From positions 1 to 64,000 of the forward strand of contig NZ_NOXU01000023.1 in assembly GCF_002251795.1 (NCBI RefSeq): a stretch of DNA of 64,000 nucleotides. Reading direction: 5' to 3'. Each line of letters opens with the position of its first letter. The stretch's first letter is position 1. Positions 151 to 26,296 of this stretch are shown here, piece after piece. Both the position numbers and the translations under genes were made by a program. This DNA comes from Niveispirillum lacus (GTDB lineage Bacteria > Pseudomonadota > Alphaproteobacteria > Azospirillales > Azospirillaceae). Below the pieces are notes generated by a model that saw nothing but the letters and a program-made list of their open reading frames with translations, was not told the DNA's origin and searched no databases.

Positions 151-2577
151 TTAGAATTTGGCACCCAGGGTCAGCCCGTAATAACGAGGCGGGCCATAGG
201 TGGAGAAGGTCCAGAGCGCGCCGACCACGTTGGTGGCGGTGTTATACCGCTTGTCGGTCAGATTGCGGCCGACAGCCTGGATCGTGTAACGGTCTTCTGC
301 ATCGTGCCAGGTGATGGCCGCGTTCAGCAGGGTCTTCTTGACCAGCTTGCTGTCAAATTCCGAACTGACATCGGAATAGACATAGCCGTTTTCATCTTCG
401 AACTGGATGGCGCCGTTAAACAGGATTTCGCCCTTGTCGGCCAGATCCAGGGTGTAGGTGGCATCCAGCGACCATTGCCATTTCGGCGCACGGTTCAAGG
501 GCCGGTTGGAGAAGTCGATATCGATGTCGCCATCGAAATCCGTATCGGCTTCGAACTTGTCATACTGGGCGTCCAGGTAACCCAGGACACCGCGGATTTC
601 CAGCCCGTCCATCGGCAGGATGCTGCCTTCCAGTTCCAACCCCTTCACGGTGGCTTCACCGGCATTAAAGAAGCGGGTTTCCTGCACCTGCTGACCGAAG
701 GAATTGGTCAGGGTGGCGACAAGCCCGCGCTGCATGTCGGTGTAGTTGACATAGAAGGCGGTGGCGTTCAGGCGTGCCCGATTATCCAGGAAGTCGGTCT
801 TGATACCGGCTTCATAACTGTCGGCCAGTTCCGGGTTGGTCGGGCGCGCGCCCAGGGCCGGGATGGCGACACCGGTGGTGCCCGTCTGGTCATTATAGGC
901 GCCCGAGCGGAAGCCACGCGAATAGGTGGCATAGGCCATGAGGTCGTCAGTCACCTGGTACGACGCGCTGGCCCGCCAGGTCGGCTCTGACCAGGTTTCG
1001 CTGTCGCGCACCACACCGGTCGGATACTTGTTGAAATCGCCGGCATTCAGAAGTTTGCCCAGCTTGTTCCAGGTGAAATTCGGGTCAAAGGTGCCGGACA
1101 GGGCCTGCACGAACACCTGGTTGCGCCCGGCCCAGGCCTTCTTTTCCTTGGTCCAGCGCGCCCCACCGACCAGAGTCAACTTGTCATTCACCTCCCAGGT
1201 GACGTCGCCATAAGCGGCATAGGCCTTTTGACGTTCCTGGTTACACAGAACCTGCGGGTTGTTGTTGAAGGTGCCAAACGGCAGCGTCACGCCGAACAGG
1301 TCCAGGAAGCCCAGAACCTGTCCCACACAGAAATTGACGTCATTCTTCTGATAGAAGCCGCCCGCCACCATCTGTACGGGGCCGTCCCAGTTGGACGCCA
1401 TGCGGAATTCCTGCTGGAAGGTCTTGCGCAGGTCGGTCCGGTTGGCGTCAAACAGGGAGATGGGGCCGACCTCACCCGTGTAGGTGCTGGGCAATTGCGA
1501 ATATTGCTTACGCCAGCCGGTGACGGAGGTCAGGGTGACCTTGTCGGCGTCCCAGTTGATGGTGCTGTAATAGCCATCGACATCGACCTGATGCCCGTCC
1601 GACATGTTCAGCAGGCTGTCATCGCGGTTGGTGATACCGGCCTTGTCCAGCGGGTCACCGGCATCCTGGCTGAAGCCGAGATTAAAGAAGGCCCAGCGAT
1701 TGTCCGAGGGCGTGGTGTTGACCACGGGCACACTGTCGGAATTGTCACGCACCCGCTCCGCCTGGAACAGGGCCTCGACATTTTCCGTGGGTTTCCACAA
1801 CAGCTTGGCCCGGCCGTTGAAGATGTCCTCACCACCCAGGGTGGAGCCGTCACCACAGCCACGGGCATTGCTGCCAGGCACCGGGCCATAGCAGGCGCCG
1901 TTCTTGTAATACCCATCGGACTTGTTATAGGCGGCAACCAGACGCACGCCCAGCTTATCTTCCACCACGGGAAGATTGAGCGATGCCTTGGCCGACCGGG
2001 TGCCGAAGCTGCCGGCGGTCAACTGCACTTCGCTGGCCTGATCGGTCAGGGAGGGTTTTTTGGTATAAACGGTGACAACGCCACCGGTGGTGTTCTTGCC
2101 GAACAGCGTGCCCTGCGGCCCGCGCAGCACTTCCACCCGCTCCACGTCAAACGTGTCCAAGAGCTGGCTCTGTACACTGGGCATGACAAAATCGTCCAGC
2201 ATCACGCCCACCGGCGCTTCGGAATAGACGATGATGTCCACCTGGCCGACACCGCGCATGGCGAAGGAGGCGGCATTAAAGCCGGTAACGCGCGCAGCGG
2301 AGAAGTTGGGCACATAGGCCGCAATGTCCCCCAGATCCTTGGGCGGGGCGGCATCGAACATGGCCGGGGTAAAGGCCGTCACGGCCACCGGCGTTTCCTG
2401 AAGGTTGCTCTGTCGACGGTTGGCCGTCACCACAATCTCGTCCAGCCCGATGGCTTGTGTGCCGGTCTGGGTTCCCCCAGCGGGGGTGGCCTCCTGGGCC
2501 AGCACCGGCATCGAGGCAATCATGGCAACGGCACTGGCACACAAGCGCCAACCCGTCACACGGTATGTCCGTGACAT
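151..2577 (-). CDS. TonB-dependent outer-membrane receptor
   Basis: 808 residues. Signal peptide of about 28 residues ending ASMPVLAQ, then a TonB box (LDEIVVTA), a plug domain with the typical VEVLRGPQGTLFGKNTTGG segment, and a C-terminal 22-strand barrel ending in the aromatic-rich GLTLGAKF. The frame is open further upstream, but the start at 2577 is preceded by GGAGGAAC at correct spacing and begins the signal peptide. It lies divergent to the GntR gene and close to the Rieske oxygenase genes. It probably imports the substrate of that pathway across the outer membrane by TonB/ExbBD energy, though the ligand cannot be read from the sequence. Receptors of this kind beside Rieske genes are common in sphingomonad-type degraders. 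Family call is firm, substrate unknown. Confidence 0.93.
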   Translation of the reverse strand: MSRTYRVTGWRLCASAVAMIASMPVLAQEATPAGGTQTGTQAIGLDEIVVTANRRQSNLQETPVAVTAFTPAMFDAAPPKDLGDIAAYVPNFSAARVTGFNAASFAMRGVGQVDIIVYSEAPVGVMLDDFVMPSVQSQLLDTFDVERVEVLRGPQGTLFGKNTTGGVVTVYTKKPSLTDQASEVQLTAGSFGTRSAKASLNLPVVEDKLGVRLVAAYNKSDGYYKNGACYGPVPGSNARGCGDGSTLGGEDIFNGRAKLLWKPTENVEALFQAERVRDNSDSVPVVNTTPSDNRWAFFNLGFSQDAGDPLDKAGITNRDDSLLNMSDGHQVDVDGYYSTINWDADKVTLTSVTGWRKQYSQLPSTYTGEVGPISLFDANRTDLRKTFQQEFRMASNWDGPVQMVAGGFYQKNDVNFCVGQVLGFLDLFGVTLPFGTFNNNPQVLCNQERQKAYAAYGDVTWEVNDKLTLVGGARWTKEKKAWAGRNQVFVQALSGTFDPNFTWNKLGKLLNAGDFNKYPTGVVRDSETWSEPTWRASASYQVTDDLMAYATYSRGFRSGAYNDQTGTTGVAIPALGARPTNPELADSYEAGIKTDFLDNRARLNATAFYVNYTDMQRGLVATLTNSFGQQVQETRFFNAGEATVKGLELEGSILPMDGLEIRGVLGYLDAQYDKFEADTDFDGDIDIDFSNRPLNRAPKWQWSLDATYTLDLADKGEILFNGAIQFEDENGYVYSDVSSEFDSKLVKKTLLNAAITWHDAEDRYTIQAVGRNLTDKRYNTATNVVGALWTFSTYGPPRYYGLTLGAKF

Positions 2578-3069
2578 CGTCTGTTCCTCCCTTGGTGCCG
2601 CGTTCGGCGGCTTTGTCTGTCGCCACAGGCTGGCGACGTTTTTGGGAAATTCCGGCACCCGATCACCGGATACATGAAGCTCTTATCCGCACGGGCGAGC
2701 GCCGTGTTTCTGGATACGGTCTGAACAGTATAATATTTTTTTACGGCGCGCAATGTATACGAACGAAGAAAATGTGCGCGGACGCAGGAAGTGGCTTGAG
2801 CGCTGCCTGATCCGCCGCCTTTCCGCCCCTTCCGGCGGGTTCGGGGCCCGATCTAGCACCGCTTCTGGACAGGATCAGTGAGAAGAATGCCCGGTTTGAG
2901 TATGCAATCTTGGCCTCTTACGTATTCAAATCGCGCCACGATGGCTTGACTTGTCCCCGGCCATGACCGATACATGACACCGGTGCTTCTCCCCTTTGCC
3001 GGGGCCGGATGGCGCTTGATTGGCAGAGTTTTACCTTAAGGTGACGCGCGGGCGCGCGGCGGAGGACGG
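2578..3069. promoter_or_regulatory. Divergent promoter region between TonB receptor and GntR gene, with a TGTATACG site
   Basis: A 492-bp gap without a credible gene. At 2727-2732 the minus strand reads TATACT, with TTGCGC (2748-2753) 15 bp upstream, a possible sigma-70 promoter for the receptor. Directly upstream of it lies TGTATACG (2754-2761), a one-mismatch version of the palindrome TGTATACA found before other island operons. The plus strand has TATAAT at 2729-2734. The rest (2770-3040) shows only short GC-rich inverted repeats. Confidence 0.5.
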
Positions 3070-3741
3070 ATGAACAAGCCCACACACGTGACCCATGCCG
3101 AACATGTGCGTGTGTCCCTGGAGCAGGACATATTCATGGGCCGTCTGCGTCCTGGTTCCCGCCTGGATGAAGAAGTGATCGCCAGCCGGTTTGGCATCTC
3201 GCGCACCCCGGTGCGCGAAGCGGTGCTGCAACTTGTGGAATCCGGGCTGGTGGAAAAGCGGCCGCGCCAGGGGGCGGTGGTGGCCAGCATGGATATCCGC
3301 CGCATGATCCATATGTTTGAGGTCATGTCGGAACTGGAGGGCCTGTGCGCCAAACTATCCGCCCGCCGCATGTCACCGGAAGAAAAAGCCAAGCTGGCCG
3401 AGGTGCACAAGCTGTCGGAGGAACATTACAACGCCGGTCGCCAGGATGAATATTACGCGGCCAGCCGCAAGTTCCATCAGCTTCTGGTCTGGGGCAGCCA
3501 TAATGATGTGCTGGTGGAGATGACGGACAAGCTGGCGCTGCAACTGGTTCCGTATCGCCGCTATCAGTTGAATTATCCGGGCCGGGCGGATGAAAATCTG
3601 CGCGACCATGCCGCCATTCTGGAGGCGGTACAGCAGGGCGATCCGGAAATGGCCTATCGTCGCTTGCGCCAGCATACGACCATCCAGGGCGACATCTTCG
3701 CCGAATATATCTCCCTGACAGGGCAGCGGGCGGCGGAATAA
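3070..3741 (+). CDS. GntR-family transcriptional regulator, FCD subfamily
   Basis: 223 residues. N-terminal winged helix-turn-helix at about residues 15-75, with the family signature RLDEEVIASRFGISRTPVRE, then an all-helical FCD ligand-binding domain (about 85-215) in which D/H-rich helices normally bind a metal and a carboxylate ligand. Length matches the FadR/VanR group. It starts at ATG 3070 after GGCGGAGGACGG. FCD regulators usually repress catabolic genes and bind TNGTNNNACNA-type or TGTATACA-type palindromes; such sites occur before the receptor, the acyl-CoA dehydrogenase/SDR pair and the Rieske/CoA-transferase operons here. I infer it is the local regulator and that its effector is an acid or acyl-CoA intermediate. 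Confidence 0.92.
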   Translation: MNKPTHVTHAEHVRVSLEQDIFMGRLRPGSRLDEEVIASRFGISRTPVREAVLQLVESGLVEKRPRQGAVVASMDIRRMIHMFEVMSELEGLCAKLSARRMSPEEKAKLAEVHKLSEEHYNAGRQDEYYAASRKFHQLLVWGSHNDVLVEMTDKLALQLVPYRRYQLNYPGRADENLRDHAAILEAVQQGDPEMAYRRLRQHTTIQGDIFAEYISLTGQRAAE

Positions 3742-3915
3742 GGCTGACATCACGCGGGTGCCGTTCGTCGGGTTTCACGCTGGCAAGGAGGGGCATGTCC
3801 CTAACCCTGAAACAGGGCAGGGCGCGGTTTGCCTTGAGATCATTGTTGTTGCGGGAACCGGGGGCGGAAAAGGCCGGCATCAGGACCGGCACGGAACAGA
3901 GATGGATCAGGGATA

Positions 3916-5151
3916 ATGGCGCAGGCCGATCATTATGACATCGTCATTGCCGGGGCCGGACAGGCGGCCGCGCAATGTGCCCAATCGCTGCGGCAGGGCG
4001 GATTTGCCGGCAGTCTGGCCCTGATCGGGGATGAAAATCACGCCCCTTATGAACGCCCCCCCCTGTCGAAGGATTACCTGTCGGGGAAGCGGGATGCCGC
4101 AAAGCTGTTGCTGCGCAAGCCGGATTATTGGCTGGAAAAGCAGGTGACGCTGCTGACCGGGCAGCGGATCGGGGCGGTGGATCGCGGGGCGCGGGTGCTG
4201 ACCTTGACGCAGGGTCGTCGGGTCACCTATGGCAAGCTGGTCTGGGCCACAGGGGGCCGGCCCCGCCGACTGTCCTGTCCTGGTGCCGACCTGGCCGGTG
4301 TGCATGCCATCCGCTCGATCGCCGATATAGACGGGCTGAAGGCCGATCTGGCGCCGGCGGCGCGGGTGGTGATTATTGGCGGCGGTTACATCGGGCTGGA
4401 AACCGCCGCGGTGTTGCGCGGCTTGGGTCATCCGGTGACGGTTCTGGAGGCGCAGGATCGTCTGTTGGCCCGTGTCACTTCCCCGCCCGTATCGGCCTAT
4501 TTCGCCGACCTTCATCGTCGCCACGGGGTGGATGTGCGCTTGTCGGCCCAGGTCGCGGCCCTGCATGGCGGGGCGCGGGTGGAAAGCGTGGAACTGTCTG
4601 ATGGGGTCCAGGTCCCTGCCGATATCGTGGTGGTGGGCATTGGCATCATCCCCAATGTCGAACCGCTGGCGGCAGCGGGCCTGCCCTGCCCCAACGGGGT
4701 GGTGGTCGATGCCCATTGTCGCACCGAGGACCCTGACATTCTGGCCATCGGTGATTGTGCCCTGCATCCCAATCTCTTCGCGGGACGCGCCATCCGCCTG
4801 GAATCGGTGCCCAATGCCGTGGATCAGGGCAAGGTGGCGGCCGACACGCTGCTGGGTCAGGGCAAGCCCTACAGCGCGCTGCCCTGGTTCTGGTCTGACC
4901 AGTATGACGTGAAGATGCAGGCGGCGGGTCTGGCCATGGACTATGACCGGATCGTGCCGCGCGGCGATCCGTCCGGTCCCGGCTTTGCCGTCCTGTATCT
5001 GCGCGCGGGCCGTATCATCGCCATTGACTGTCTGAACGCCCCTCGCGACTTCATCCAGGCCAAAGCCCTGATCACCGGCGGCACGGCGATCGACGCCGAC
5101 AGGGCGGCCGATCCGGGCGTGGAACTGAAGACCTTGGCCGCTGCCCAGTGA
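3916..5151 (+). CDS. FAD-dependent ferredoxin reductase (rhodocoxin/putidaredoxin-reductase type)
   Basis: 411 residues. N-terminal FAD-binding Rossmann fold (IVIAGAGQAAAQ, residues about 9-20), the family segment ERPPLSKDYL near 45, a second NAD(P)H-binding fold (VVIIGGGYIGLE, about 150-162), and a third FAD-contact motif AIGDCALHPN. The C-terminal reductase domain contains the W-SDQYD segment. The family passes electrons from NADH to a [2Fe-2S] ferredoxin. The only ferredoxin here is the Rieske one at 6294-6605, and three Rieske oxygenases lie downstream, so it is probably their shared reductase. The AGGGATA upstream of ATG 3916 is a modest ribosome site. The 175 bp to the GntR gene suggests a separate or weakly linked transcript. 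Confidence 0.9.
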   Translation: MAQADHYDIVIAGAGQAAAQCAQSLRQGGFAGSLALIGDENHAPYERPPLSKDYLSGKRDAAKLLLRKPDYWLEKQVTLLTGQRIGAVDRGARVLTLTQGRRVTYGKLVWATGGRPRRLSCPGADLAGVHAIRSIADIDGLKADLAPAARVVIIGGGYIGLETAAVLRGLGHPVTVLEAQDRLLARVTSPPVSAYFADLHRRHGVDVRLSAQVAALHGGARVESVELSDGVQVPADIVVVGIGIIPNVEPLAAAGLPCPNGVVVDAHCRTEDPDILAIGDCALHPNLFAGRAIRLESVPNAVDQGKVAADTLLGQGKPYSALPWFWSDQYDVKMQAAGLAMDYDRIVPRGDPSGPGFAVLYLRAGRIIAIDCLNAPRDFIQAKALITGGTAIDADRAADPGVELKTLAAAQ

Positions 5152-5287
5152 GGGGCTGCTGGCATTGACGGTTGCTTCCGGGCGATTGCGGGGCGCGCGA
5201 TAATGCCAGGGGTCAGGATGCTTGACCCCTGTTATAAGGCGCCGATCCTGTTCATTGATCGGTGTGACCATGGCCGGCCCCTGCGAT

Positions 5288-6259
5288 ATGACCGTCATTT
5301 ACCTGCTGGGCGGGACCATCCTGTCACTGGCGGGGAAGGCCGATCCTGCCGACAGTGCCGCTCTGCTGCGCACGGCGGGCATCCATCTGGACGGGCCGGT
5401 GACGGTGCGCCCGTTCCGCTCTGTCGGCAGCCAGAACCTGACCCTGGCCGATCTGCGGGCGCTGGCCGCCGATATCACGCTTCGCCATGCCGAGGGTGTC
5501 CGCGCCTTTGTGGTTGCACAAGGGACGGATACGATGGAGGAAAGCAGCTTCCTTCTGTCGCTGCTGGTCCCGACCACCGCCACCATCATCATGACCGGGT
5601 CAATGCGTACCGCCGACGCGCCGGGCGCGGAAGGGCCGGGCAATCTGCGCGATGCGCTGATCGCGGCGCGGTCATTGGCCGGCCATCGCCCTGGCGTGCT
5701 GGTGGCCGTCGCCGGTGAACTTCATGATGCGCGGCTGGTTCGCAAAATGGATAGCGGCCGCATCGCGGCCTTTGGCAGCCCGGGCTGGGGCCCGGTGGGC
5801 AGCATCATCACCGGTCGTGTGCGCCTGGCCATGACGCCCCTGCCGGCCCCCGGCCCCTATCAGTGGCCGGCGGATCGGGCGGCGCTCCGGGTTGGTCTGC
5901 TGACCGTGGCCATGGATGCTGACCCGCTCTGCGTCCAGCCCTATGCCGATGCGGCCTGGGATGGGCTGGTGGTGGAAGCAATGGGATCGGGCCATGTGCC
6001 CCAGGCCCTGGCGGCGCCGCTGGCCGCCATCGCCGCGACCAAACCCGTCTTGCTGGTCAGCCGCTGTCCGCAGGGAGACACCGATGCCCACGGTACCTAT
6101 CAGGGCGATGGCACTGCCGCCTGGCTGATCGCCAATGGTCTGATCGACGCCGGCAGCCTGGACGGGCGCAAGGCCCGCCTGCTCCTGACCGTCCTGCTGG
6201 GTGCGGGCCGTGATGTGCGGGCGGAACTGGCGGGGTGGGCCGGTATGGGGGTGGTTTAA
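5288..6259 (+). CDS. L-asparaginase/glutaminase family protein
   Basis: 323 residues from ATG 5288, the usual family length. The first catalytic threonine motif is present as LLGGTIL (residues 6-12). The second is GTDTMEES, with the usual preceding His replaced by Gln (VAQGTDTMEES). An in-frame ATG at 5270 and a TTG at 5222 also exist; neither has a good Shine-Dalgarno, and 5288 matches where the family's first strand begins. The enzyme would hydrolyse Asn/Gln or a related amide in the cytoplasm, as no signal peptide is seen. Its place inside a catabolic island is unexplained; it may act on an amide-bearing pathway intermediate or be an unrelated passenger. Convergent with the Rieske ferredoxin gene. 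Confidence 0.85.
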   Translation: MTVIYLLGGTILSLAGKADPADSAALLRTAGIHLDGPVTVRPFRSVGSQNLTLADLRALAADITLRHAEGVRAFVVAQGTDTMEESSFLLSLLVPTTATIIMTGSMRTADAPGAEGPGNLRDALIAARSLAGHRPGVLVAVAGELHDARLVRKMDSGRIAAFGSPGWGPVGSIITGRVRLAMTPLPAPGPYQWPADRAALRVGLLTVAMDADPLCVQPYADAAWDGLVVEAMGSGHVPQALAAPLAAIAATKPVLLVSRCPQGDTDAHGTYQGDGTAAWLIANGLIDAGSLDGRKARLLLTVLLGAGRDVRAELAGWAGMGVV

Positions 6260-6293: not shown

Positions 6294-6605
6294 CTACCCT
6301 TCCACGGTCACCAGCACCCGTCCATCCGCCACCCGCACCGGGAACAAGGTCAGCGGGCGGTAGCCGGCACCACCCAGGCAGCGGCCCCCATCGCTGAGAT
6401 CGAAACGGGCGCCATGCAGCGGGCAGGACAGGATGCCATTGCGCAGCCGCCCTTCTTCCAGGGTGCTGGCCGCGTGTGTACACATGTTGCGCACCGCACG
6501 TATATCAGAACTGCTGCGGCAGAGCAGGACATCCTCTCCGCCGGCGTCGACGCGCAGTTTGCCGCCATCGGGCAGGTCGGCAAGCGCACAGACATCATGT
6601 TCCAT
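6294..6605 (-). CDS. Rieske-type [2Fe-2S] ferredoxin
   Basis: 103 residues. Cluster ligands are clear: C42-T-H44 and C61-P-L-H64 followed by GARFDLSDG. Small soluble Rieske ferredoxins of this length carry electrons from a flavoprotein reductase to a ring-hydroxylating or demethylating oxygenase. The open frame runs further upstream, but ATG 6605 follows AAGGGGGCAACAGAC and gives a normal-length protein. It starts 13 nt after the acyl-CoA dehydrogenase stop, so the two are one operon. As the only ferredoxin in the window it is the likely donor for the oxygenases at 8843, 19782 and 22633. Confidence 0.93.
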   Translation of the reverse strand: MEHDVCALADLPDGGKLRVDAGGEDVLLCRSSSDIRAVRNMCTHAASTLEEGRLRNGILSCPLHGARFDLSDGGRCLGGAGYRPLTLFPVRVADGRVLVTVEG

Positions 6606-6618: not shown

Positions 6619-7782
6619 TTATGACCGGCGCTGGTCGAACCGGCGGCCGACCATGGCGGACGCGATATTGATCTTCTGGATATCGACAGCACCGCCGGCG
6701 ATGCCCCAGCCCCAACTGTCACGCAGACGGCGTTCCATGCCATATTCATGGGAATAACCATATCCGCCCATCAACTGTACCGCTGACCCCGTCACTTCGC
6801 GGGCGATTTCATTGGCAAAACATTTGGCGACGGAGCTTTCAAGCAGGGACGGCATCCCGTCCTGGGCATTGTTGGCGGCGCGGTGGATCAGCAGACGGGC
6901 GGCTTCCACCTTCATCTTCATTTCGGCCAGCTTGATCTGTACCGCCTGGAACTCCACAATGGCGCGGCCGAACTGTTTACGCTCCTGTACATAGTCGGTG
7001 ACCTCTTCCAGGGCACCCGATGCCTGGGCCAGCGACATGGTGGCATTGCCGCAGCGTTCCAGATCAAACGCCTCCATCATCTTTTTGAACCCACCCGCGC
7101 CGACAATGACATTTTCGCGCGGGATTTCGACCTCATCGAAATAGATGTCGGAACTGGGGATCCCCCGGAACCCCATCAATTGTTCGTTGGCGCCGAACGT
7201 CAGGCCCTTCATGCCTTTTTCGACAAAAACGGCCCCGATTCCCTTGGCGCCCGCCTCTTCCGACATGCGGACATAAACCACATAACCATCGGCATGGCCG
7301 CCGCCCGAACACCAGCGTTTGGTACCGTTCAGGTACAGTTTGCCGTCGCGTTCGGTGACCTTGCTGGTCAAATCGGTCAGGGCTGATCCGGCCTCTGGTT
7401 CCGACATGGCGATGGCCACGATCATGTCGCCGCGACAGACGGCCGGTACCACCCGGTCGCGCAGTTGCTTGGAACCGAAATGTTCGATGGCGCGGACGGG
7501 GCCGACGCAGCTTTCAAACACCGGAAAAGCCACGGCAGAGGAGATTTTGGCCAGTTCCTCCAGCACGATCAGGGCTTCAAGATTGCCCAGTCCCATGCCG
7601 CCATATTCTGTCGGTATATTTATACCGAGAAACCCCATATCCGCATATTTACGGATCCATTCCTTCGGGCAGGCCTCGCCCGTCAGGTCCAGATGTTTGG
7701 CCAGCGGGCGCAACTGTTCCTGGGCAAAGCGGCGCGCGGCCTCCTGCAGCTCCCGCTGCTCCTCTGTCAGTCGGAAATCCAT
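6619..7782 (-). CDS. Acyl-CoA dehydrogenase (Glu in the DLER position)
   Basis: 387 residues with the full ACAD fold: N-terminal helical domain starting MDFRLTEEQRELQEAARRFA, middle beta domain (AMSEPEAGSALTDL; RWCSGGG), and C-terminal helical domain (ERKQFGRAI; QLMGGYGYSHEYGMERRLRD). The C-terminal YEGT glutamate of short/medium-chain enzymes is missing (GIAGGAVDIQ), but E242 in FDLERCGNA sits where isovaleryl-CoA and long-chain dehydrogenases keep their catalytic base, which suggests a branched or bulky acyl-CoA. Start at 7782 is supported by GGAGGACAGAGGTCC. Divergent from the SDR gene across a region holding a perfect TGTATACA palindrome; co-transcribed with the Rieske ferredoxin. Confidence 0.93.
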   Translation of the reverse strand: MDFRLTEEQRELQEAARRFAQEQLRPLAKHLDLTGEACPKEWIRKYADMGFLGINIPTEYGGMGLGNLEALIVLEELAKISSAVAFPVFESCVGPVRAIEHFGSKQLRDRVVPAVCRGDMIVAIAMSEPEAGSALTDLTSKVTERDGKLYLNGTKRWCSGGGHADGYVVYVRMSEEAGAKGIGAVFVEKGMKGLTFGANEQLMGFRGIPSSDIYFDEVEIPRENVIVGAGGFKKMMEAFDLERCGNATMSLAQASGALEEVTDYVQERKQFGRAIVEFQAVQIKLAEMKMKVEAARLLIHRAANNAQDGMPSLLESSVAKCFANEIAREVTGSAVQLMGGYGYSHEYGMERRLRDSWGWGIAGGAVDIQKINIASAMVGRRFDQRRS

Positions 7783-7914: not shown

Positions 7915-7933
7915 TTTTTTGTATACAGAAAAA
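7915..7933. promoter_or_regulatory. Candidate GntR operator TGTATACA
   Basis: Perfect 8-bp palindrome TGTATACA at 7920-7927 in a symmetric T-run/A-run context (TTTTT before, GAAAAA after). It lies in the 281-bp intergenic region between the acyl-CoA dehydrogenase (minus) and the SDR (plus), so it could control both directions. Similar sites occur at 2754, 21079, 21099 and 22353. Binding by the GntR protein at 3070 is inference. Confidence 0.55.
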
Positions 7934-8063: not shown

Positions 8064-8825
8064 ATGGATCTGGGTCTGAAGGGCAAAAAGGCCGTTGTCA
8101 CCGGTGCGACCAAGGGCATTGGGCGCAAGATCGTAGAGACGTTGGCCGATGAAGGTGTGGATATCGCCATCTGCTCCCGCACCGCCGAAGAGGTGGAGGA
8201 GACGCTGGCCGTGCTGCGCGCCAAGGGCGTGAATGCCGTGGGCGAGGCCGTGAATGTCCGCGACGGCGAGGCCTACAAGGCGTGGATTGCCAAGGCTGCC
8301 GAACAATTAGGGGGCATCGACATCCTGGTGCCCAACGTGTCCGGCGGGGCCGGCATGGACAGCGAAAAGAACTGGCAGCGCAATTTCGAAGTGGATGTGA
8401 TGGGGTCGGTGCGCGCGGTGGAAACCGCTGTGCCCTTCTTGAAAAAATCCGGTGAAGGCTCGGTGGTGTTCATCGTGTCGACCAATGCCATTGAAACATT
8501 TGCGGCCCCCATGGCGTATAACGCGCTGAAGGCCAGCCTGATCACCTATTCCAAGCAATTGGGCCAGTTCCACGGCAAGCGGCGCATCCGTTTCAACGCC
8601 CTGTCGCCGGGCCCGATCTTTGTCGAAGGCGGTGCCTGGGACATGATCCAGACCTCCCAGCCTGATTTCTATAATGCCACCATCGCTGCTCATCCGTTTG
8701 GCCGTATGGGCACCGCGGAAGAAGTGGCCAGGGCCGTCGCCTTCCTGGCCAGCCCCGCCGCGAGCTGGATCAACGGCACCCACCTGATTGTTGATGGTGG
8801 GTATACGAAGGGCGTCCATTTCTGA
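8064..8825 (+). CDS. SDR-family oxidoreductase (FabG-like)
   Basis: 253 residues. Classical short-chain dehydrogenase: cofactor motif TGATKGIG (residues about 13-20), NVSGG in the NNAG position, catalytic Ser in VSTNAIE and Y-N-A-L-K giving the YxxxK pair. The C-terminal segment ends IVDGGYTKG. It would oxidise or reduce a hydroxy/keto group on a pathway intermediate. The start at 8064 follows AGGGAAGGAAAAACGCG. It is first in a plus-strand run, 17 bp before a Rieske oxygenase, then E1alpha, E1beta and E2, under the region containing TGTATACA. Confidence 0.93.
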   Translation: MDLGLKGKKAVVTGATKGIGRKIVETLADEGVDIAICSRTAEEVEETLAVLRAKGVNAVGEAVNVRDGEAYKAWIAKAAEQLGGIDILVPNVSGGAGMDSEKNWQRNFEVDVMGSVRAVETAVPFLKKSGEGSVVFIVSTNAIETFAAPMAYNALKASLITYSKQLGQFHGKRRIRFNALSPGPIFVEGGAWDMIQTSQPDFYNATIAAHPFGRMGTAEEVARAVAFLASPAASWINGTHLIVDGGYTKGVHF

Positions 8826-11280: not shown

Positions 11281-11294
11281 CCGGGAGAGGTTCG

Positions 11295-19781: not shown

Positions 19782-21002
19782 TTACGCCGCCTTTGTCGCC
19801 TCGATGAACTTACCCAGCACCTGCGCCACCCGCAGATGGTCGGGCACCGCATCGCCGATGCGACGGTCCAGTTCTTCGTGCCAATGGTAAATCCGGCGTT
19901 CCTGATAATTCAGGGAAATGCCCGTGAAGCCGCCGCTTTCCACCGATTTCTGGATGCTGTCGGCAAATTGGGTATCCTCTTCCAGGATACGGTCAAAATT
20001 GCTGATGCGCGTTTCCCAGATTTCAGGGCGCGGACCCTCGCCCCAGTCGGGGGAGAACCAGCACACCTCAATATACATGCGCCTGATATCAATGGGCCAA
20101 AACACGATGAAGGGCATGCCCGTCGGCGCGGGGGGGACTACGATGTTCGGATAGACATTGATCGACACGTTGGCCGTGCGCGGGATCTCACTCACCGTCG
20201 GGATGTCGGGCAGACCCTTGGTACCCGGGTCCTGCCAGTCGGGGCGGCGGTTGGGGGTGATCATGCGCGAATGGCCGCCTGGCCACAGGGTCATGAACGA
20301 CCCGCGATGGTCCAGGAAGCGATCCACCGTGTTCTGGTGGATGGATTTCAGGTGATAGACTTCCAGAAACGCATCCAGCAGAACCTTGACGTTACAATTC
20401 ACCACCACCCCATGCCGGTCCGCCAGACGCAGGTTTTGTGGCTGAAACTCCGACAGATCTGGGACGACGGGGGCCAGATAGTCCATCAGCGGCCCGGCAT
20501 TTTCATCCATGTTGATGAAATGCCAGTTGCCGAAATTCTCGCACCGGACCTCGATCAGCGATTTGCACTTCAGGTCCAGCCCGACAAAGTCACGTTTGTC
20601 GCGCAGATTGATCAGGTCGCCTTTCAGATTATAGGTCCAGCCATGATAGCCGCAGACCATGCCGCGGCCCTTGCCCTTTTCTTCCGTCACCACCGGCGCG
20701 CCCCGGTGACGGCAGGTATTGTAGAAGCAGCGGATCTTGTTATCGTCGCCGCGCACAAAGAACAGAGGATCGCCCAACCGGTCCCATTTCAAAAATGACC
20801 CAATCTCCGGCACCTCATCGGCGTGGATGGCATAGACCCAGGTCCGCCGCCACAGGGCCTGACGCTCCAGTTCATAAAAATCTGGATCGACATAACGCCC
20901 AGAGGGAATTTCCGGCAGCGCCGGAAAACCATCCGGTGGGCCCTCCCGCGTGGATTCGTAATTCATGCCGGCTTTGATACGGTCGATTTCCAGGGCGTCC
21001 AT
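19782..21002 (-). CDS. Rieske non-haem iron oxygenase, alpha subunit (2)
   Basis: 406 residues. Rieske ligands C-R-H-R-G-A and C-G-Y-H-G-W (about residues 83-110). The mononuclear iron site is LEVYHLKSIH. Start ATG 21002 follows GAAAGGGAAGGACC; the longer open frame has no ribosome site. No beta subunit is nearby. The C-terminal third differs from the other two oxygenases, so it may act on a different intermediate. It precedes the HMG-synthase-like gene by 87 bp. Confidence 0.93.
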   Translation of the reverse strand: MDALEIDRIKAGMNYESTREGPPDGFPALPEIPSGRYVDPDFYELERQALWRRTWVYAIHADEVPEIGSFLKWDRLGDPLFFVRGDDNKIRCFYNTCRHRGAPVVTEEKGKGRGMVCGYHGWTYNLKGDLINLRDKRDFVGLDLKCKSLIEVRCENFGNWHFINMDENAGPLMDYLAPVVPDLSEFQPQNLRLADRHGVVVNCNVKVLLDAFLEVYHLKSIHQNTVDRFLDHRGSFMTLWPGGHSRMITPNRRPDWQDPGTKGLPDIPTVSEIPRTANVSINVYPNIVVPPAPTGMPFIVFWPIDIRRMYIEVCWFSPDWGEGPRPEIWETRISNFDRILEEDTQFADSIQKSVESGGFTGISLNYQERRIYHWHEELDRRIGDAVPDHLRVAQVLGKFIEATKAA

Positions 21003-21078
21003 GGTCCTTCCCTTTCCTTCTCTGTCTTCACCCCTGTTCCGTCCTGGGGATAACGGAATAAGCGGGCGCGCATTTTCC

Positions 21079-21128
21079 GCATACATAGCAGATCGCTCTG
21101 CATACAGAAAGCATGTATTTTGTGTACG
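21079..21128 (-). promoter_or_regulatory. Cluster of GCATACA/TGTATT half-sites before Rieske oxygenase 2
   Basis: Between the CoA-transferase stop and the oxygenase start are CGCATACA (21079-ish), TGCATACA (21099-21106), ATGTATTT (21113-21120) and TGTGTACG (21121-21128), all one- or two-mismatch forms of TGTATACA. Spacing suggests tandem operator half-sites and an internal promoter for the second part of the operon. Inference from pattern only. Confidence 0.45.
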
Positions 21129-22313
21129 TCAAACGATCCTGGCCGAACGCAGGGCTGCAATCGCGGCGGCGTCATAGCCCAGTTCGCGCAGGATCACCTC
21201 GGTATGCTCACCCACTGTGGGCGGGCGTGACCGGATACTGCCGGGGGTTGCCGACAGGGTGACGGGGGGGCCGGCCACTGGGGCTGGATGTGGCAGGCCG
21301 GGATAATCCACCGGCTGCAACAGGCCCAAGGCCTGCACTTGGGCATGGTCCAGCACCTGCTGGGGTGACAGGACGGGGCCACCGGGAATGCCCGCTGCCG
21401 CCAGGGCCTCCATCGCCTCATCGGTGCTAAGGTTTCGGCACCAGTCAGCCATGCGGGCGCAGAGAATCTGGTTATTGTCGCCGCGCGCCTGATCGCTGGC
21501 GAAGCGTGGATCGGCTTTCCATTCAGGTTCGCCCACCATGTCGCACCAGCGTGCAAACAGGCCGTCGCCCACCGTATGGATCAGGACATGGCCGTCCGTG
21601 GTGGCGAACACGTCCGACGGTGCGGATGTCTGGACCCGGTTGCCGGTGCCGACCCGGTTGATGCCGGTCACCGCCTGTTCCACCAGAAAGGCGTTGAACA
21701 GGGTCACGCCGGTGGACAGCAGGCTGGCCTGGACAGACTGTCCCCGGCCGGTGGCCCGCTTCTCCATCAGCGCTGCCATGGCGCCCAGGGCAGCAAACAT
21801 TCCGGTACCGAAATCAACATAGGGTGCGCCGGCCTTCATGGGCTGTTCGGGCGTGCCGGAAAAATACATGGCGCCCGACATGGCCTGCCCGACCCCATCA
21901 AACCCCCCGCGCGCCGCCCAGGGGCCCGCGGCACCAAAACTGGAGATCAGGACCGGGATGATGTCAGGCTTGATGGCGCGCAGGCTGTCTTCATCCAGGC
22001 CCATGGCAGCCAAGGCCGGCGGCGGCAGGTTGGCGACAACCACATCTGCTGTGGCCACCAGACGCCGCACCACCTCGCGCCCCTCCGGCTTGGTCGGGTT
22101 CAGCGTCAAGGAGCGTTTATTGACGCCCATCTGCAGCCATCCCGCCCCTTCGCCCGTGTCAGTCACCGGGGTGATGAACCGGTCCTCGCCGCCGCCCAAA
22201 CGTTCGACGCGGATGATTTCGGCACCGAAATAACCAAGTAGGGTGGCGCAGTATGGCCCCGCCACATACCGGCCGAAATCCAGAACCCGCACCCCGTTCA
22301 GAACCTGTGACAC
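21129..22313 (-). CDS. Family III CoA-transferase (CaiB/BaiF) (1)
   Basis: 394 residues. N-terminal LNGVRVLDFGRYVAGPYCATLLGYFGAEIIRVE is diagnostic. The catalytic aspartate is in APYVDFGTGMFAA (about residue 170), and the glycine-rich loop is ATGRGQSVQ. It moves CoA between carboxylic acids with a covalent Asp anhydride intermediate and needs no ATP. First gene of the minus-strand operon that continues with Rieske oxygenase 2, HMG-synthase/DUF35, thiolase, SDR and quinohaemoprotein. Probably activates or recycles a pathway acid as its CoA ester. Confidence 0.92.
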   Translation of the reverse strand: MSQVLNGVRVLDFGRYVAGPYCATLLGYFGAEIIRVERLGGGEDRFITPVTDTGEGAGWLQMGVNKRSLTLNPTKPEGREVVRRLVATADVVVANLPPPALAAMGLDEDSLRAIKPDIIPVLISSFGAAGPWAARGGFDGVGQAMSGAMYFSGTPEQPMKAGAPYVDFGTGMFAALGAMAALMEKRATGRGQSVQASLLSTGVTLFNAFLVEQAVTGINRVGTGNRVQTSAPSDVFATTDGHVLIHTVGDGLFARWCDMVGEPEWKADPRFASDQARGDNNQILCARMADWCRNLSTDEAMEALAAAGIPGGPVLSPQQVLDHAQVQALGLLQPVDYPGLPHPAPVAGPPVTLSATPGSIRSRPPTVGEHTEVILRELGYDAAAIAALRSARIV

Positions 22314-22632
22314 GTTCCATCCTCCCCCGCCGGTCTCCCCGGTCTATTGCTGTGCATACAGGATATAGCCAGTTTCAGTAAATCTGCAAGTGCGCATAAA
22401 GTGAGTGTTTCTGCGGATTTTAGCGGCGCTCGCATAGCCACGTATGTCGCACCGCAGCAAAAATCGGCGGTTCCGACTTTTTAATTTTACACACAAAAGG
22501 CATTGTGTGTATATTTTTCCAAACCAAACGGGATCGGTTTGGGCACTCGCCCTTTGTCGGCAATGTTGCGACCTGCGCACCCCACCCCCCGACAAGAAGT
22601 TCCTGGGAACCCGCGATCTGGGAGGATCATCC
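22314..22632. promoter_or_regulatory. Divergent operon promoter region with TGCATACA and a TACACACAA/TTGTGTGTA inverted repeat
   Basis: A 319-bp gap with no gene. TGCATACA at 22353-22360 lies close to the CoA-transferase start. A perfect 9-bp inverted repeat, TACACACAA (22488-22496) and TTGTGTGTA (22503-22511), with 6-bp spacer AAGGCA, lies 122 bp before the Rieske oxygenase start within an AT-rich patch. This looks like a dimer-binding operator or a promoter-overlapping site. Shine-Dalgarno GGGAGGA precedes ATG 22633. Confidence 0.55.
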
Positions 22633-24033
22633 ATGGATGGGATCAGTTCGTCTTTTGATTATCGCAAGGGCTGGTCGGTCAATCCGAAGGCCAAGCCGGG
22701 TGATATCGACGCCAAGGCGCCCTTCATTGACAATGGCACCGAAAAATTCGACCCGGCCCAATATTACGACAAGGGTTGGATGGCGCAGGAATGGGACAAG
22801 CTGTGGACCAAGACCTGGCTGATCGCTTGCCCGTCCAGCGATGTGCGCGAGGAAGGGGATTTCGCCACCTTTGAGATCGGCAACGAGAATATCGTGGTGG
22901 TCCGGGGTGATGATGGCCAGGTGCGCGCCTTCTATAATGTCTGCCCGCACCGGGGTAACCGGTTGGTGCATACGGCCCTTGGCAGCCTGTCGAACGGATT
23001 TGCCTGTTCATTCCATAGCTGGAAATTCAACCTGGATGGCAGCCTGAAAAGCATCACCGACCGCGAGACGTTCCGGCCAGAGGTGGTGTGTCACAATCCG
23101 GGCATGAGTGCAGTCAAATGTGAGGAACTGGCCGGTCTGGTGTTTATTTCCATGAACCCGGACGCGCCCGACCTGCGCACCTGGCTGGGGCCGGTCGCGG
23201 CGCATCTGGAAAGTTACCAGATCGACAAGATGCATGTGGTCCGTCAGGTGCGCAGTGAATGGGCTGCCAACTGGAAGATTGGTGTCGATGCCTTTTACGA
23301 GGTCTATCACCTGCATGCGGTCCATCCGGAAACCCAGGGCGTGATGGAGGATTATTTCGTCCAGTACGACCTGTTCCCCAATGGCATGAGCCGGATGTGC
23401 ATTCCGTTCTACCGGCCCAGCCCGCGCGTCCCCGACCAGTTGGGCGTGAATGAGGGGCTGAAAATGATGATGCCCGATGCCGCGCTCGACCCGGCCGGCT
23501 TCACCGGCACCGCCCAGGAAGTGCGTGAGGCGGCCCAGAAGGCCAAGCGGGAGCGGGCTGAACGGCTGGGTCTGGGCTATGAGAAACTGACCGATGCGCA
23601 ATTGACCGACAGTTTTGCGTATGGCCTGTTCCCCAATGTGCAGATCGGCTGCCATCCCGAAGGCGTGTTCCTGATGCGATTCATCCCGCATCCGGACGAT
23701 CCCGAGCGTTTTTTCTACGATATCACCATCCTGTTCCGGCCCGTGGGAGCCGTGGCGGAAGCGGCGGGCAATTATGATGTGCCGGCCTGGATGGGCCTGC
23801 CGGAAGGCACGGACATTTCTGGTCGGGTGCGGCCGGATTGTGTGCATGTGCCGCTGGGTGAACCGGCCAATCTGGGGCTGGTGCTGGATCAGGACAGCGA
23901 GCTTCTGCCTGTGGTGCAGCAGGGCCTGCGGTCGCGCGGTTTCAACGGCATGCTGTTCGGCGAGCAGGAGCAGCGCCTGCGTCATTTCCATGTCGAACTG
24001 AACCGCTACATGGCGGCGGGGGAGCCGCGATGA
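22633..24033 (+). CDS. Rieske non-haem iron oxygenase, alpha subunit (3)
   Basis: 466 residues. Rieske ligands C-P-H-R-G-N and C-S-F-H-S-W (about residues 106-133). Iron site FYEVYHLHAVHPE. C-terminal LVLDQDSELLPVVQQGLRSRGF parallels oxygenase 1, implying duplication. The frame is open upstream to 22444 but the Shine-Dalgarno and the normal N terminus fix the start at 22633. Its stop overlaps the next gene's ATG by 4 bp, so it is the first gene of an oxygenase-ABM-ligase-ABM operon. Confidence 0.93.
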   Translation: MDGISSSFDYRKGWSVNPKAKPGDIDAKAPFIDNGTEKFDPAQYYDKGWMAQEWDKLWTKTWLIACPSSDVREEGDFATFEIGNENIVVVRGDDGQVRAFYNVCPHRGNRLVHTALGSLSNGFACSFHSWKFNLDGSLKSITDRETFRPEVVCHNPGMSAVKCEELAGLVFISMNPDAPDLRTWLGPVAAHLESYQIDKMHVVRQVRSEWAANWKIGVDAFYEVYHLHAVHPETQGVMEDYFVQYDLFPNGMSRMCIPFYRPSPRVPDQLGVNEGLKMMMPDAALDPAGFTGTAQEVREAAQKAKRERAERLGLGYEKLTDAQLTDSFAYGLFPNVQIGCHPEGVFLMRFIPHPDDPERFFYDITILFRPVGAVAEAAGNYDVPAWMGLPEGTDISGRVRPDCVHVPLGEPANLGLVLDQDSELLPVVQQGLRSRGFNGMLFGEQEQRLRHFHVELNRYMAAGEPR

Positions 24034-24341
24034 TCTTCTTCATCAGCCGATTTACGGTGAAGCCGGACTGCGAGGCGGAGTTCATCCGCCTCGCCACTTC
24101 CCTGACGGAAAAGGTCCGGGCCCATGAGCCGAAGACCCTCTATTACGCCTTCTACCGGGCCGACGGCCCCGGTCGCTTTGTTGTCGTGGAAAGTTTCCCC
24201 GACGAGGCGGCAGAACATGAGCATCAATCCACGCCCTGGTTCACCGAGATTGTGCCGCAGATGATCCCGTGTTTCGACGGGCCCTATGTGCGGGAATATT
24301 TCCATCCGCTGAACGCATCCGTGAAAGGATCGACGGCATGA
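24030..24341 (+). CDS. Antibiotic-biosynthesis-monooxygenase (ABM) domain protein (1)
   Basis: 103 residues, one dimeric alpha/beta-barrel ABM domain (MIFFISRFTVKPDCEAEF; FVVVESFPDEAAEHEHQST at the His-containing helix). Such proteins are cofactor-free monooxygenases, quinol oxygenases or isomerase-like enzymes on aromatic or polyketide-like compounds. ATGA overlap at both ends ties it to oxygenase 3 and the CoA ligase. A paralogue lies after the ligase at 26006. Activity not determinable from sequence. Confidence 0.85.
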   Translation: MIFFISRFTVKPDCEAEFIRLATSLTEKVRAHEPKTLYYAFYRADGPGRFVVVESFPDEAAEHEHQSTPWFTEIVPQMIPCFDGPYVREYFHPLNASVKGSTA

Positions 24342-25990
24342 GCAAGGCCGACCAGTTCATCCATGCCACCACGCTTGGCGACCTGCTTTTGTCGGCCGCC
24401 CGCACCTGGCCCGACACGGACGCGCTGATCTTTCCCGATGAAAGCCTGACCTATCGTGATCTGGCTGCCCGCGCCATGCGCCATGCCAAGGGGCTGATGG
24501 CGATGGGCATCAAGCCCGGCGACCATGTCGGCGTGCTGCTGCCTTCCTGTATCGAGTTTGTCGATATCCTGTTCGGCGTGGCCCTGGCCGGTGGGGTGAC
24601 GGTGCCGATCAATGCCCGTTACCGGGCACATGAATTGGCCTATGTCACCGACAATGCCGATCTGGTCACCATCATCACCACCGAACAGGTTGCCGATCAG
24701 CTTAACTTTATCGACCGGTTGTGTGAGGGATTGGACGGTCTGGCTGACCAGACAGACCCGATGGCCCTGGGTCTGAAGGGTTGTCCGCGGTTGCGGTCGA
24801 TCATCCTGCTGGGCGATGGTGGCCGGCAATTTACCGTCACTGCCGACCAGTTCGGCGCCCTGGCGGACACGGTGACGGACGAGGCCGTGCATGAACGCCG
24901 CGCCTTTGCGCGGGTGCGCGCGCCGGGGATCATCTTGTACACCTCCGGCACCACGTCCAACCCCAAGGGCTGCCTGATCAGCCATGAAGCGATTGTCCGC
25001 ACCTCCCAGGCGTTGGCCGAGCGGTATGAGCTGACCGACCGCGACCGGTTCTGGTCGCCGCTGCCCCTGTTCCATATCGCGGCCATCCTGCCGCTGGTCG
25101 CCATCTATGCCAAGGGCGGCACCTATCTGTCGATGCAGCATTTTGATGCCGGCGTGGCGCTGAAAATGCTGGAAACACATAAGGTGACGGCCACTTACCC
25201 CTGTTTTGCGCCCATCATGGTGGACCTGATCCACCATCCGGACTTTGCCACCACCGATCTGTCATCCGTGCGCCTGATGAATTCGTCGCTGGCGGTGCAG
25301 ACAGGGGCGATGAAGGAGATGTTGGCCAAGGCCATGCCCAACTGCATCCAGGTCGGCACCTATGGCCTGTCAGAGGCAGCGGGCACCGTTTGCACCAGCA
25401 GCCTTCACGACCCCTACGAGGTGCGCACCACACGGCTGGGCCGGCCTTTGCCGGGGATCGAGGTGAAGATCGTCGATGCCTTTGGTGAGACCCTGCCGGC
25501 GGGTCTAAAGGGCGAGATCCTGGTGCGCAGCCCTGGGCTGCTGGACGGCTATTACAAGGACCCGGCGAAAACGGCCGAGGCGCTGCAGGGCGGCTGGCTG
25601 CATACGGGCGATGTCGGGTCGCTGGATGCTGACGGCAACATCATGTTCCATGGCCGCACCAAGGACATGCTGAAGGTCGGCGGGGAAAATGTCGCCGCGG
25701 CGGAGATCGAAGCCTATATCGGCACCCATCCGGCGGTGAAAATGTGCCAGGTGGTCGGTGCGCCCGATCCCCGTTTGGTGGAGGTGCCGGCCGCCTTCAT
25801 CGAACTGCATCCGGGCAGCGCGCTGACGGCGCAGGAAGTGCTGGATTATTGCCGCGGCAAAATCTCCAGCTTCAAGGTGCCGCGCCATGTGCGGTTTGTG
25901 ACCCAATGGCCGATGTCGACCAGCAAGATCCAGAAATACAAGCTGCGTCAGCAACTTGAAGCGGAACTGGCGGCCGGGGCCGCCGCCTGA
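24338..25990 (+). CDS. Acyl-CoA synthetase (AMP-forming, ANL superfamily)
   Basis: 550 residues. AMP-binding motifs: YTSGTTSNPKGC (about residues 205-216), YGLSEAAGT, WLHTGDVGSLDADG and GRTKDMLKVGGENVAA. The adenylation lysine is in STSKIQKYKLR near the C terminus. The protein adenylates a carboxylate and transfers it to CoA; together with the flanking ABM proteins and oxygenase 3 it would start CoA-dependent breakdown. Start ATG 24338 overlaps the ABM stop (ATGA); the longer frame lacks a ribosome site. Confidence 0.93.
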   Translation: MSKADQFIHATTLGDLLLSAARTWPDTDALIFPDESLTYRDLAARAMRHAKGLMAMGIKPGDHVGVLLPSCIEFVDILFGVALAGGVTVPINARYRAHELAYVTDNADLVTIITTEQVADQLNFIDRLCEGLDGLADQTDPMALGLKGCPRLRSIILLGDGGRQFTVTADQFGALADTVTDEAVHERRAFARVRAPGIILYTSGTTSNPKGCLISHEAIVRTSQALAERYELTDRDRFWSPLPLFHIAAILPLVAIYAKGGTYLSMQHFDAGVALKMLETHKVTATYPCFAPIMVDLIHHPDFATTDLSSVRLMNSSLAVQTGAMKEMLAKAMPNCIQVGTYGLSEAAGTVCTSSLHDPYEVRTTRLGRPLPGIEVKIVDAFGETLPAGLKGEILVRSPGLLDGYYKDPAKTAEALQGGWLHTGDVGSLDADGNIMFHGRTKDMLKVGGENVAAAEIEAYIGTHPAVKMCQVVGAPDPRLVEVPAAFIELHPGSALTAQEVLDYCRGKISSFKVPRHVRFVTQWPMSTSKIQKYKLRQQLEAELAAGAAA

Positions 25991-26005
25991 CCGGAAGGAA
26001 TGCCC

Positions 26006-26296
26006 ATGTATACCATCGTCGCCAAACTTTACGTGAAACCCGAGAAGGAAGCGGAATTCGTCGCCGCCATGTCGGCACTAACCGACAAGGTCCTGGCCAA
26101 TCAGCCCGACGTCACCGTCTATCTGTTCAAGAAAATCCGCGGCCGCGACCACGCCTATGCTGCCATTGAACAGCACCCGTCCCAGGATTATTTCCGCGAC
26201 GTCCATTGCACCACGCCCTGGTTTCAGGAACTGGTGCCCGTGGTGATGCCGTGCCTGGCCGAACCGATGGTGCTGGAGGAGTTTGACGATCTGTAA
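26006..26296 (+). CDS. Antibiotic-biosynthesis-monooxygenase (ABM) domain protein (2)
   Basis: 96 residues. MYTIVAKLYVKPEKEAEFVAAMSAL opens a single ABM domain; the HPSQDYFRD and TPWFQELV segments align with the first ABM protein (STPWFTEIV), so they are paralogues. Two ATGs compete: 26000 sits directly against GGAAGG, while 26006 has that Shine-Dalgarno 7 nt upstream, so 26006 is preferred. Last gene of the oxygenase 3 operon. Confidence 0.85.
   Translation: MYTIVAKLYVKPEKEAEFVAAMSALTDKVLANQPDVTVYLFKKIRGRDHAYAAIEQHPSQDYFRDVHCTTPWFQELVPVVMPCLAEPMVLEEFDDL

Follow-up and report, generated by a model that had tools for sequence, protein, structure and literature searches.

A conserved, apparently co-regulated catabolic gene set with three alpha-only Rieske oxygenases in Niveispirillum lacus

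We analyzed the first 64 kb (the window) of a 201,333-base contig, C12, of Niveispirillum lacus, whose 4.97-Mb genome comprises 31 contigs. Genes in the window were called with a codon model and then scanned against Pfam and NCBIfam. The span 151-26296 holds 21 called genes, including three Rieske oxygenase (RO) alpha genes, a 2-oxo-acid dehydrogenase E1/E2 set and a group of CoA-dependent enzymes. Its parts are ordinary. Their combination is conserved in distant genomes, is apparently co-regulated and was not described in the literature searched, with subscription papers largely outside that search. The features are listed below, where SDR is short-chain dehydrogenase/reductase, ACAD acyl-CoA dehydrogenase, HMGS 3-hydroxy-3-methylglutaryl-CoA synthase, PQQ pyrroloquinoline quinone, PVA polyvinyl alcohol and ORF open reading frame.

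151..2658, minus strand: TonB-dependent receptor (Pfam; 43-52% relatives in several RO1 loci)
3070..3741, plus strand: GntR/FCD regulator, proposed controller (Pfam; 59-60% orthologs in the Terrarubrum and Paracoccus clusters)
3916..5151, plus strand: ferredoxin reductase, AndAa-like (357 bits to the AndAa model, below the cut-off of 650)
5222..6259, plus strand: asparaginase-like hydrolase, pathway link doubtful (Pfam; a serine hydrolase at the same place in N. cyanobacteriorum)
~6294..6605, minus strand: Rieske ferredoxin (ORF called to 6761; Pfam; start from N. cyanobacteriorum)
6619..7782, minus strand: ACAD (ORF called to 8046; Pfam, NCBIfam; start from N. cyanobacteriorum)
7919..7928: putative operator TTGTATACAG between ACAD and SDR1 (motif match)
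8064..8825, plus strand: SDR1 (Pfam; an SDR of this kind upstream of RO1 in 74/76 loci)
8843..10141, plus strand: RO1, Rieske oxygenase alpha (Pfam, RO1 profile)
10312..11280, plus strand: E1 alpha, E1a (Pfam, NCBIfam)
11277..12308, plus strand: E1 beta, E1b (Pfam, NCBIfam)
12301..14031, plus strand: E2 (ORF called from 12196; Pfam; start from N. cyanobacteriorum)
14220..16118, minus strand: cytochrome c-PQQ quinohaemoprotein, PVA-dehydrogenase-like (domain scan; sequence match)
16158..17018, minus strand: SDR2, 2,4-dienoyl-CoA-reductase-like (206 bits, cut-off 318; 59-67% in six distant clusters)
17022..18224, minus strand: thiolase PRK06157 (663 bits, cut-off 403)
18237..19694, minus strand: HMGS-like/DUF35 fusion, HMGS Cys replaced (domain scan; alignment)
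19782..21086, minus strand: RO2, Rieske oxygenase alpha (domain scan)
21098..21107: putative operator before RO2 (motif match)
21129..22313, minus strand: CaiB-type CoA-transferase (domain scan)
22352..22361: putative operator between CaiB and RO3 (motif match)
~22633..24033, plus strand: RO3, Rieske oxygenase alpha (ORF called from 22444; domain scan; start from N. cyanobacteriorum)
24030..24341, plus strand: ABM-domain protein 1 (domain scan)
24338..25990, plus strand: CoA ligase (ORF called from 24269; domain scan; start from N. cyanobacteriorum)
26000..26296, plus strand: ABM-domain protein 2 (domain scan)

Five ORFs (ferredoxin, ACAD, E2, RO3 and ligase) were probably called too long at the 5' end, and their corrected starts were taken from the annotated orthologs of N. 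cyanobacteriorum. An earlier, sequence-only reading of this region had listed the three RO alpha genes with one Rieske ferredoxin and one ferredoxin reductase, and each was found where it had been placed. Pfam and NCBIfam also confirmed its CoA ligase, CoA-transferase, ACAD, SDRs, thiolase, HMGS/DUF35, E1/E2, TonB and GntR genes. That reading overlooked the asparaginase-like gene (5222-6259) and the two ABM-domain genes (24030-24341 and 26000-26296).

RO1, RO2 and RO3 each carry the Rieske ligands C-x-H...C-x2-H and the iron motif E-x2-H-x4-H. The lack of beta subunits holds for the whole genome: Ring_hydroxyl_B (PF00866) gave no match across its 4.97 Mb. As a control, the same search was run on 14 genomes and gave matches in 3, of which 2 exceed the cut-off. 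For all three oxygenases the best NCBIfam model is GbcA (131.8, 118.5 and 121.7 bits, respectively), far below its cut-off of 670. The best PDB match is HcaE for RO1 (127.5 bits) and carnitine oxygenase for RO2 (104.6 bits) and RO3 (114.1 bits). A structure model of RO1 has a predicted local distance difference test score (pLDDT) of 77 and a predicted template modelling score (pTM) of 0.82, with pLDDT below 50 at residues 209-229, the site of two iron His. A fold search with this model returned the general RO fold only, with carnitine oxygenase and stachydrine demethylase among the closest at 18-21% identity.

On these matches, the ROs could be demethylases that act at N or O of betaines or methoxylated compounds, and CaiB would then handle the product much as it does in carnitine metabolism. 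GbcA as best model (118-132 bits), the carnitine oxygenase and stachydrine demethylase matches and a Glu at the bridging position, which carnitine oxygenase presumably shares, would all fit. However, the scores lie far below the GbcA cut-off and the fold matches share just 18-21% identity. Three ROs together with E1/E2, a thiolase and a PQQ enzyme are also more than demethylation needs, and no formaldehyde-handling gene was recognised among the 21. We regard demethylation as quite unlikely.

The island was compared closely with six distant plasmid clusters, those of Sphingobium RAC03, Croceicoccus, Novosphingobium PP1Y, Novosphingobium SA1, Paracoccus and Terrarubrum. Orthologs of each RO in distant clusters (RO1 64-74%, RO2 53-66%, RO3 53-56%) are far closer to that RO than RO1, RO2 and RO3 are to one another. 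RO3 compared with the RO1 orthologs of Paracoccus and Terrarubrum gave ~37-39%. An RO tree of 22 proteins, 18 from the window and named relatives and 4 own-genome paralogues, came with a long-branch warning. In it the 6 RO2 rows group together with support (100/99). The RO3 rows fall into two supported subsets, and the tree does not settle whether these unite, together with a Rhizorhabdus protein. The RO1 proteins stand at an unresolved fork.

The ROs had been said to share one redox chain, and within the island this is so. The genome as a whole has more: another ferredoxin reductase (55%) and another Rieske ferredoxin (52%) lie in a paralogous island on contig C29, and a further ferredoxin lies in a detached unit of C12, described below. 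The C29 island (C29:263000-298000; L138, L139) also holds an RO 42% identical to RO1, E1a (73%), E1b (79%), E2 (53%), ThuA, SDRs and a TonB receptor (30%). Four Rieske matches fall on C29:266-296 kb. That E1/E2 again stands with another RO, SDRs and ThuA there supports the single-regulon reading given below.

The island thiolase retains its nucleophilic Cys and the GHP His: NLCATGT and CFGHPIGATG were aligned with 6esq_A, 6hsj and BbsB. It is nearer to 7yvy and 6esq_A than to PhlC. The HMGS half of the fusion aligned best with PhlA (99.5 bits) and next with an archaeal HMG-CoA synthase (82.4 bits). The ACKAGT of 6esq_I, whose Cys we take to be the catalytic Cys of HMG-CoA synthase, is aligned to SLRAAT. 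The HMGS half is likelier PhlABC-like than an HMG-CoA synthase because this Cys is replaced, as it is in PhlA. The "HMG-synthase" proposed before is thus present as an HMGS-like/DUF35 fusion, and an active synthase is less likely with the catalytic Cys position lost; from the alignment, the half is more likely a PhlA-like scaffold. HMGS-like, DUF35 and thiolase parts are common to the island, the PhlABC acyltransferase and the archaeal thiolase-DUF35-HMGS complex. Unlike in PhlABC, the PhlA- and PhlB-like parts are fused in the island. Together with the thiolase, the fusion is likelier to form a PhlABC-like complex for acyl transfer or retro-Claisen cleavage than to make HMG-CoA.

Two known systems resemble this CoA-dependent part. 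The bbs operon for benzylsuccinate beta-oxidation presumably has CaiB, an acyl-CoA dehydrogenase, an SDR, DUF35 and a thiolase, as in the island, and BbsB is among the PDB matches of the island thiolase. Unlike the island, we take the bbs operon to be anaerobic and without oxygenases. The ibuprofen ipf cluster, as we understand it, combines a CoA ligase, a Rieske oxygenase, an SCP2-like thiolase and DUF35, again as in the island. An ibuprofen-like set for aromatic side chains or arylalkanoates would work by CoA ligation, Rieske ring hydroxylation, side-chain removal by thiolase/DUF35 and ring cleavage. In its favour, the CoA ligase, Rieske oxygenases, SCP2-like thiolase and DUF35 lie side by side, and the ferredoxin reductase is closest to AndAa and HcaD among NCBIfam models. 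Compared with the island, however, the ipf oxygenase is presumably alpha/beta and ipf is not known to include a thiamine pyrophosphate (TPP) complex. The ligase, thiolase and DUF35 of ipf are present in the island; an alpha and beta oxygenase pair is not, and the genome has no beta subunit. No ring-cleavage dioxygenase is among the 21 genes, and E1/E2 and the PQQ enzyme would be left unexplained. An arylalkanoate pathway is therefore, in our judgement, rather unlikely.

The DUF35 part is of the ChsH2 C-terminal family, which would suit degradation of steroids or bile acids, with a DUF35/thiolase aldolase on the side chain and a Rieske oxygenase on the ring. DUF35-aldolase and Rieske KshA steps are included in a review of bile-acid degradation (PMC8399759), and KstD-like proteins occur in two related clusters. 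However, the thiolase and the HMGS-DUF35 protein are nearest to groups other than Ltp2 (51 bits). No KshA- or HsaC-type model was among the matches of the 21 genes, and steroid core genes were not searched genome-wide. Steroid degradation seems very unlikely to us.

E1a, E1b and E2, the last with lipoyl, E3-binding and catalytic domains by Pfam, make a complete 2-oxo-acid dehydrogenase E1/E2 set. No E3 is among the 21 island genes. Pyruvate dehydrogenase equivalog models gave 305 of 394 bits for E1a and 412 of 445 bits for E2, both below the cut-off, and E1b passes a subfamily model only (339 bits, cut-off 321). E2 has three E3-binding stretches by Pfam; by eye, N. cyanobacteriorum likewise shows three, and the rows of Paracoccus, Terrarubrum and Sphingobium show two. 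Palindromic repeat-like elements were seen at 10148-10268, in the gap between RO1 and E1a, and at 12662-12749, within the E2 frame in a linker where E2 lengths vary.

The quinohaemoprotein was rightly read as PVA-dehydrogenase-like. It has an N-terminal cytochrome c and a PQQ propeller, and it matched a plasmid protein of Sphingopyxis 113P3 at 36% over 91%. We take that protein to be the PVA dehydrogenase of the strain. No oxygenase is among the 9 features in 9.8 kb of the 113P3 locus. In N. cyanobacteriorum TH16 (L049:9245-15141) the PQQ gene is in two pieces, which flank a Tn3-family transposase and a recombinase gene.

The gene set is conserved and widely shared, not a one-off island. Orthologs occur in all six distant clusters for the ligase (51-60%), RO2 (53-66%), SDR2 (59-67%), ACAD (67-73%), RO1 (64-74%) and SDR1 (50-66%). 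E1a and E1b (64-81%) are found in five of the six, and RO3 is restricted to the four sphingomonad clusters. The clusters of Paracoccus pantotrophus DSM 11072, Terrarubrum 7MK25, Sphingobium RAC03 and Croceicoccus E4A9 share these ligase, RO1, RO2, SDR1, SDR2 and ACAD orthologs with the island, and E1a/b except in Croceicoccus; no pathway is named in their annotated records. Unlike the island, these four carry DUF35 as a gene of its own and have a different thiolase and a different CaiB (28-38%); the Paracoccus and Terrarubrum stretches also contain a branched-chain-type ABC transporter. In all six clusters CaiB and thiolase are only 28-38% identical to the window versions, as non-orthologous counterparts, and the stretches gave no match to HMGS-DUF35.

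The RO1 alignment was used as a profile against genome contigs and found 253 relatives, of which the best 80 (63-98% identity) were kept. These 80 come from Niveispirillum, Paracoccus, many sphingomonads and gammaproteobacterial metagenome-assembled genomes. Among their loci, window-type CaiB (58-67%) occurs in 8 outside Niveispirillum-type loci, window-type thiolase (70-75%) in 4 and HMGS-DUF35 (45-65%) in 3. By these identities, the CaiB, HMGS-DUF35 and thiolase genes appear to be swapped for a different set in other lineages. Partners were counted in those 54 RO1 loci that have 5 kb or more of flank on each side, where each label is the best tblastn match of at least 60 bits, so that broad families are over-counted: SDR 53, E1a 40, E1b 40, E2 38, ThuA 38, CaiB family 38, DUF35 or thiolase 32, ligase 30, ACAD 28, Rieske ferredoxin 25, ABM 23, TonB 23, PQQ protein 21, RO3 18, RO2 17, SDR2 17 and HMGS-DUF35 3. 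Of 76 loci, 74 have an SDR no more than 1.5 kb upstream of RO1, and 52 have E1a no more than 1.5 kb downstream of it.

RO2 was found in all 42 RO1 genomes searched (42 of the 80), with best matches of 626-791 bits. In a survey of 385 genomes of the class, with at most four candidates scored per genome and a 600-bit threshold chosen after the scores were seen, RO1 reached at least 600 bits in 9 genomes and RO2 in 12. All 9 RO1 genomes hold both. The other 3 RO2 genomes belong to one family (f50) and have weaker RO1 relatives of 393-545 bits. Fisher's test for this co-occurrence gave p 4.7e-16, or 8.6e-11 with families collapsed ad hoc. Several RO1/RO2 relatives were seen in f50 genomes (G149, G273 and G444; 1.3-1.4 Mb), and four f40 genomes (G097, G266, G362 and G438) gave 52-92 first-look candidates for the RO profiles. 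By record titles, several carriers come from lakes, blooms, mats or sediments, a tally not counted against background.

Module order varies among lineages, and transposons separate the RO1 block from the RO2/RO3 block in N. cyanobacteriorum. Unrelated catabolic modules assembled by chance on an accessory replicon could look like this. However, RO1 and RO2 stand together in 42/42 and 9/9 genomes and four units have a common motif before them. Because the set recurs in distant genomes, the island is more than chance; such an assembly is highly improbable.

The motif is palindrome-like TGTATRCA (CTGTATRCA in full). Within the 64-kb window it has three separate positions, each in front of an island unit: 7920, in the gap from SDR1 to the corrected start of ACAD; 21099, ahead of RO2; and 22353, in the gap from CaiB to RO3. 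The Poisson probability of at least three sites in 26.3 kb, 1.2e-5 to 4.1e-5, is descriptive, the motif having been picked by eye. Genome-wide, CTGTATRCA occurs at 12 distinct places (13 strand hits), and the reversed control at 7. A fourth C12 site, at 183544, falls in a detached unit (C12:181680-184797) ~155 kb further along. This unit has ThuA, VOC, MaoC, [2Fe-2S] ferredoxin and SDR genes, and the site is in the gap between MaoC and the ferredoxin. Among the other eight places, five are outside the ORFs listed after filtering by GC content at third codon positions (GC3) or before one, and at least three are inside an ORF. The description of a large catabolic island with CoA-dependent C-C cleavage stands, as does its lack of a match to any described pathway in the literature searched. 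As a unique and bounded unit it does not stand, since the set is shared widely and probably extends past 151-26296 to this detached unit with its putative operator.

All four C12 sites are at orthologous places in N. cyanobacteriorum and L053, both of which have an extra site inside RO3. A promoter alignment of five sequences is 90% identical overall, and its longest stretch without variation (45 columns) includes site 7920. Two sites with one mismatch each lie in the TonB/GntR promoter. In Anianabacter (L126), TTTTTGTATGCAGAAAAA stands between the GntR gene and a VOC gene; motif sites in L105 and L069 are also intergenic. A perfect palindrome with the island motif core, AAAAGCTGTATACAGCTTTT, was seen at C25:49500-49525 (L141), 39 bases before a 347-aa Rieske-domain ORF. 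The shared motif suggests one GntR-controlled regulon, in which the GntR protein would bind the putative operator sites.

On the whole, we favour, at somewhat better than even odds, a single catabolic regulon under GntR/FCD control, whose substrate would be a natural product with a carboxyl group, probably alicyclic or terpenoid. That the island genes form one pathway we hold with fair confidence. The alicyclic part draws on a hint from KstD/4-oxocyclohexanecarboxylate-dehydrogenase-like proteins in the Terrarubrum and Paracoccus clusters, which may point to an alicyclic ketone.

Several observations weigh against this reading. The KstD-like proteins scored 430 and 485 bits, below the curated cut-offs of 1000 and 900; the best model for the Paracoccus protein is an unnamed FAD oxidoreductase (660 of 747 bits). 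Such proteins lie near RO1 in 3 of 80 loci, at 34-35% identity, and the N. lacus relative sits on a different contig, without a further labelled pathway gene in 20 kb. RO3 and TonB were not found in the Paracoccus and Terrarubrum stretches, and E1a/E1b in the Croceicoccus stretch reach only 41-43%. In 24 of 76 loci RO1 is not closely followed by E1a. The SDR, ACAD and ligase labels are broad families, and the E1/E2 counts cover RO1 loci without a control set of unrelated RO loci. Among solved structures, human pyruvate dehydrogenase comes closest to E1a, which may therefore have an ordinary 2-oxo-acid role. As to the motif, it was spotted by eye after a 13-mer search in which no 13-mer with one mismatch was common to at least three of nine promoter stretches. 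Shuffled windows gave a mean of 1.23 strand hits of TGTATRCA compared with 4 observed, and 3 of 100 shuffles reached 4. Extra in-gene sites occur in N. cyanobacteriorum, L053, L055 (inside SDR1) and L126. The exact motif is absent from the Paracoccus (L046) and Terrarubrum (L047) stretches despite orthologous GntR proteins.

Outside the island, the right flank (from 26351; 19 of 30 called genes scanned) has signalling, biotin-synthesis-like and other genes, with no link to the island seen. At 53547-63138 a large TonB receptor is followed by tryptophan halogenases, two of which were scanned, and repeats there hint at one more. Genes of this TonB/halogenase type come directly after E2 in N. cyanobacteriorum. 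A 94-base tandem duplication (51021-51208, 96% identical) covers the 5' end of a CoA-transferase ORF adjoining an acyl-CoA dehydrogenase. Rfam at the gathering threshold gave no match in 1-27000.

In the regulon that we favour, the TonB receptor would import the compound and the periplasmic quinohaemoprotein would oxidise an alcohol. The CoA ligase or the CaiB enzyme would form a CoA ester. RO1-3, with electrons from the ferredoxin reductase and ferredoxin, would hydroxylate the skeleton. SDR1 would turn the RO1 product into a ketone with another oxygen function next to it, as in a 2-oxo acid, a ketol or a diketone, and the E1/E2 TPP/lipoyl complex would make an oxidative C-C cut of this product to an acyl-CoA. 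The gene order SDR-RO1-E1a-E1b-E2 suggests sequential action, and a step of hydroxylation, oxidation and cleavage may be read from it. Next, the CoA ester would be shortened through retro-Claisen or retro-aldol cleavage by ACAD, a hydratase, SDR2 and the thiolase/HMGS-DUF35 complex.

A broader proposal is possible but doubtful. The pathway may be common in Alpha- and Gammaproteobacteria, with an RO and an SDR passing an oxygenated alicyclic ring to E1-E2 for direct opening to an acyl-CoA; the substrate would be a phototroph-derived terpenoid or other refractory alicyclic matter. Many RO alpha paralogues have been proposed to attack organic matter in SAR202, where ring-hydroxylating oxygenases are expanded (PMC6946804). 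The part of that paper available to us has no gene set or regulon like that of the island.

A coherent set of ~20 genes in distant bacteria suggests that some common natural compound is degraded by a route yet to be explained. If E1/E2 does cut the RO/SDR product, this would be an extra ring- or chain-cleavage route beside the few known.

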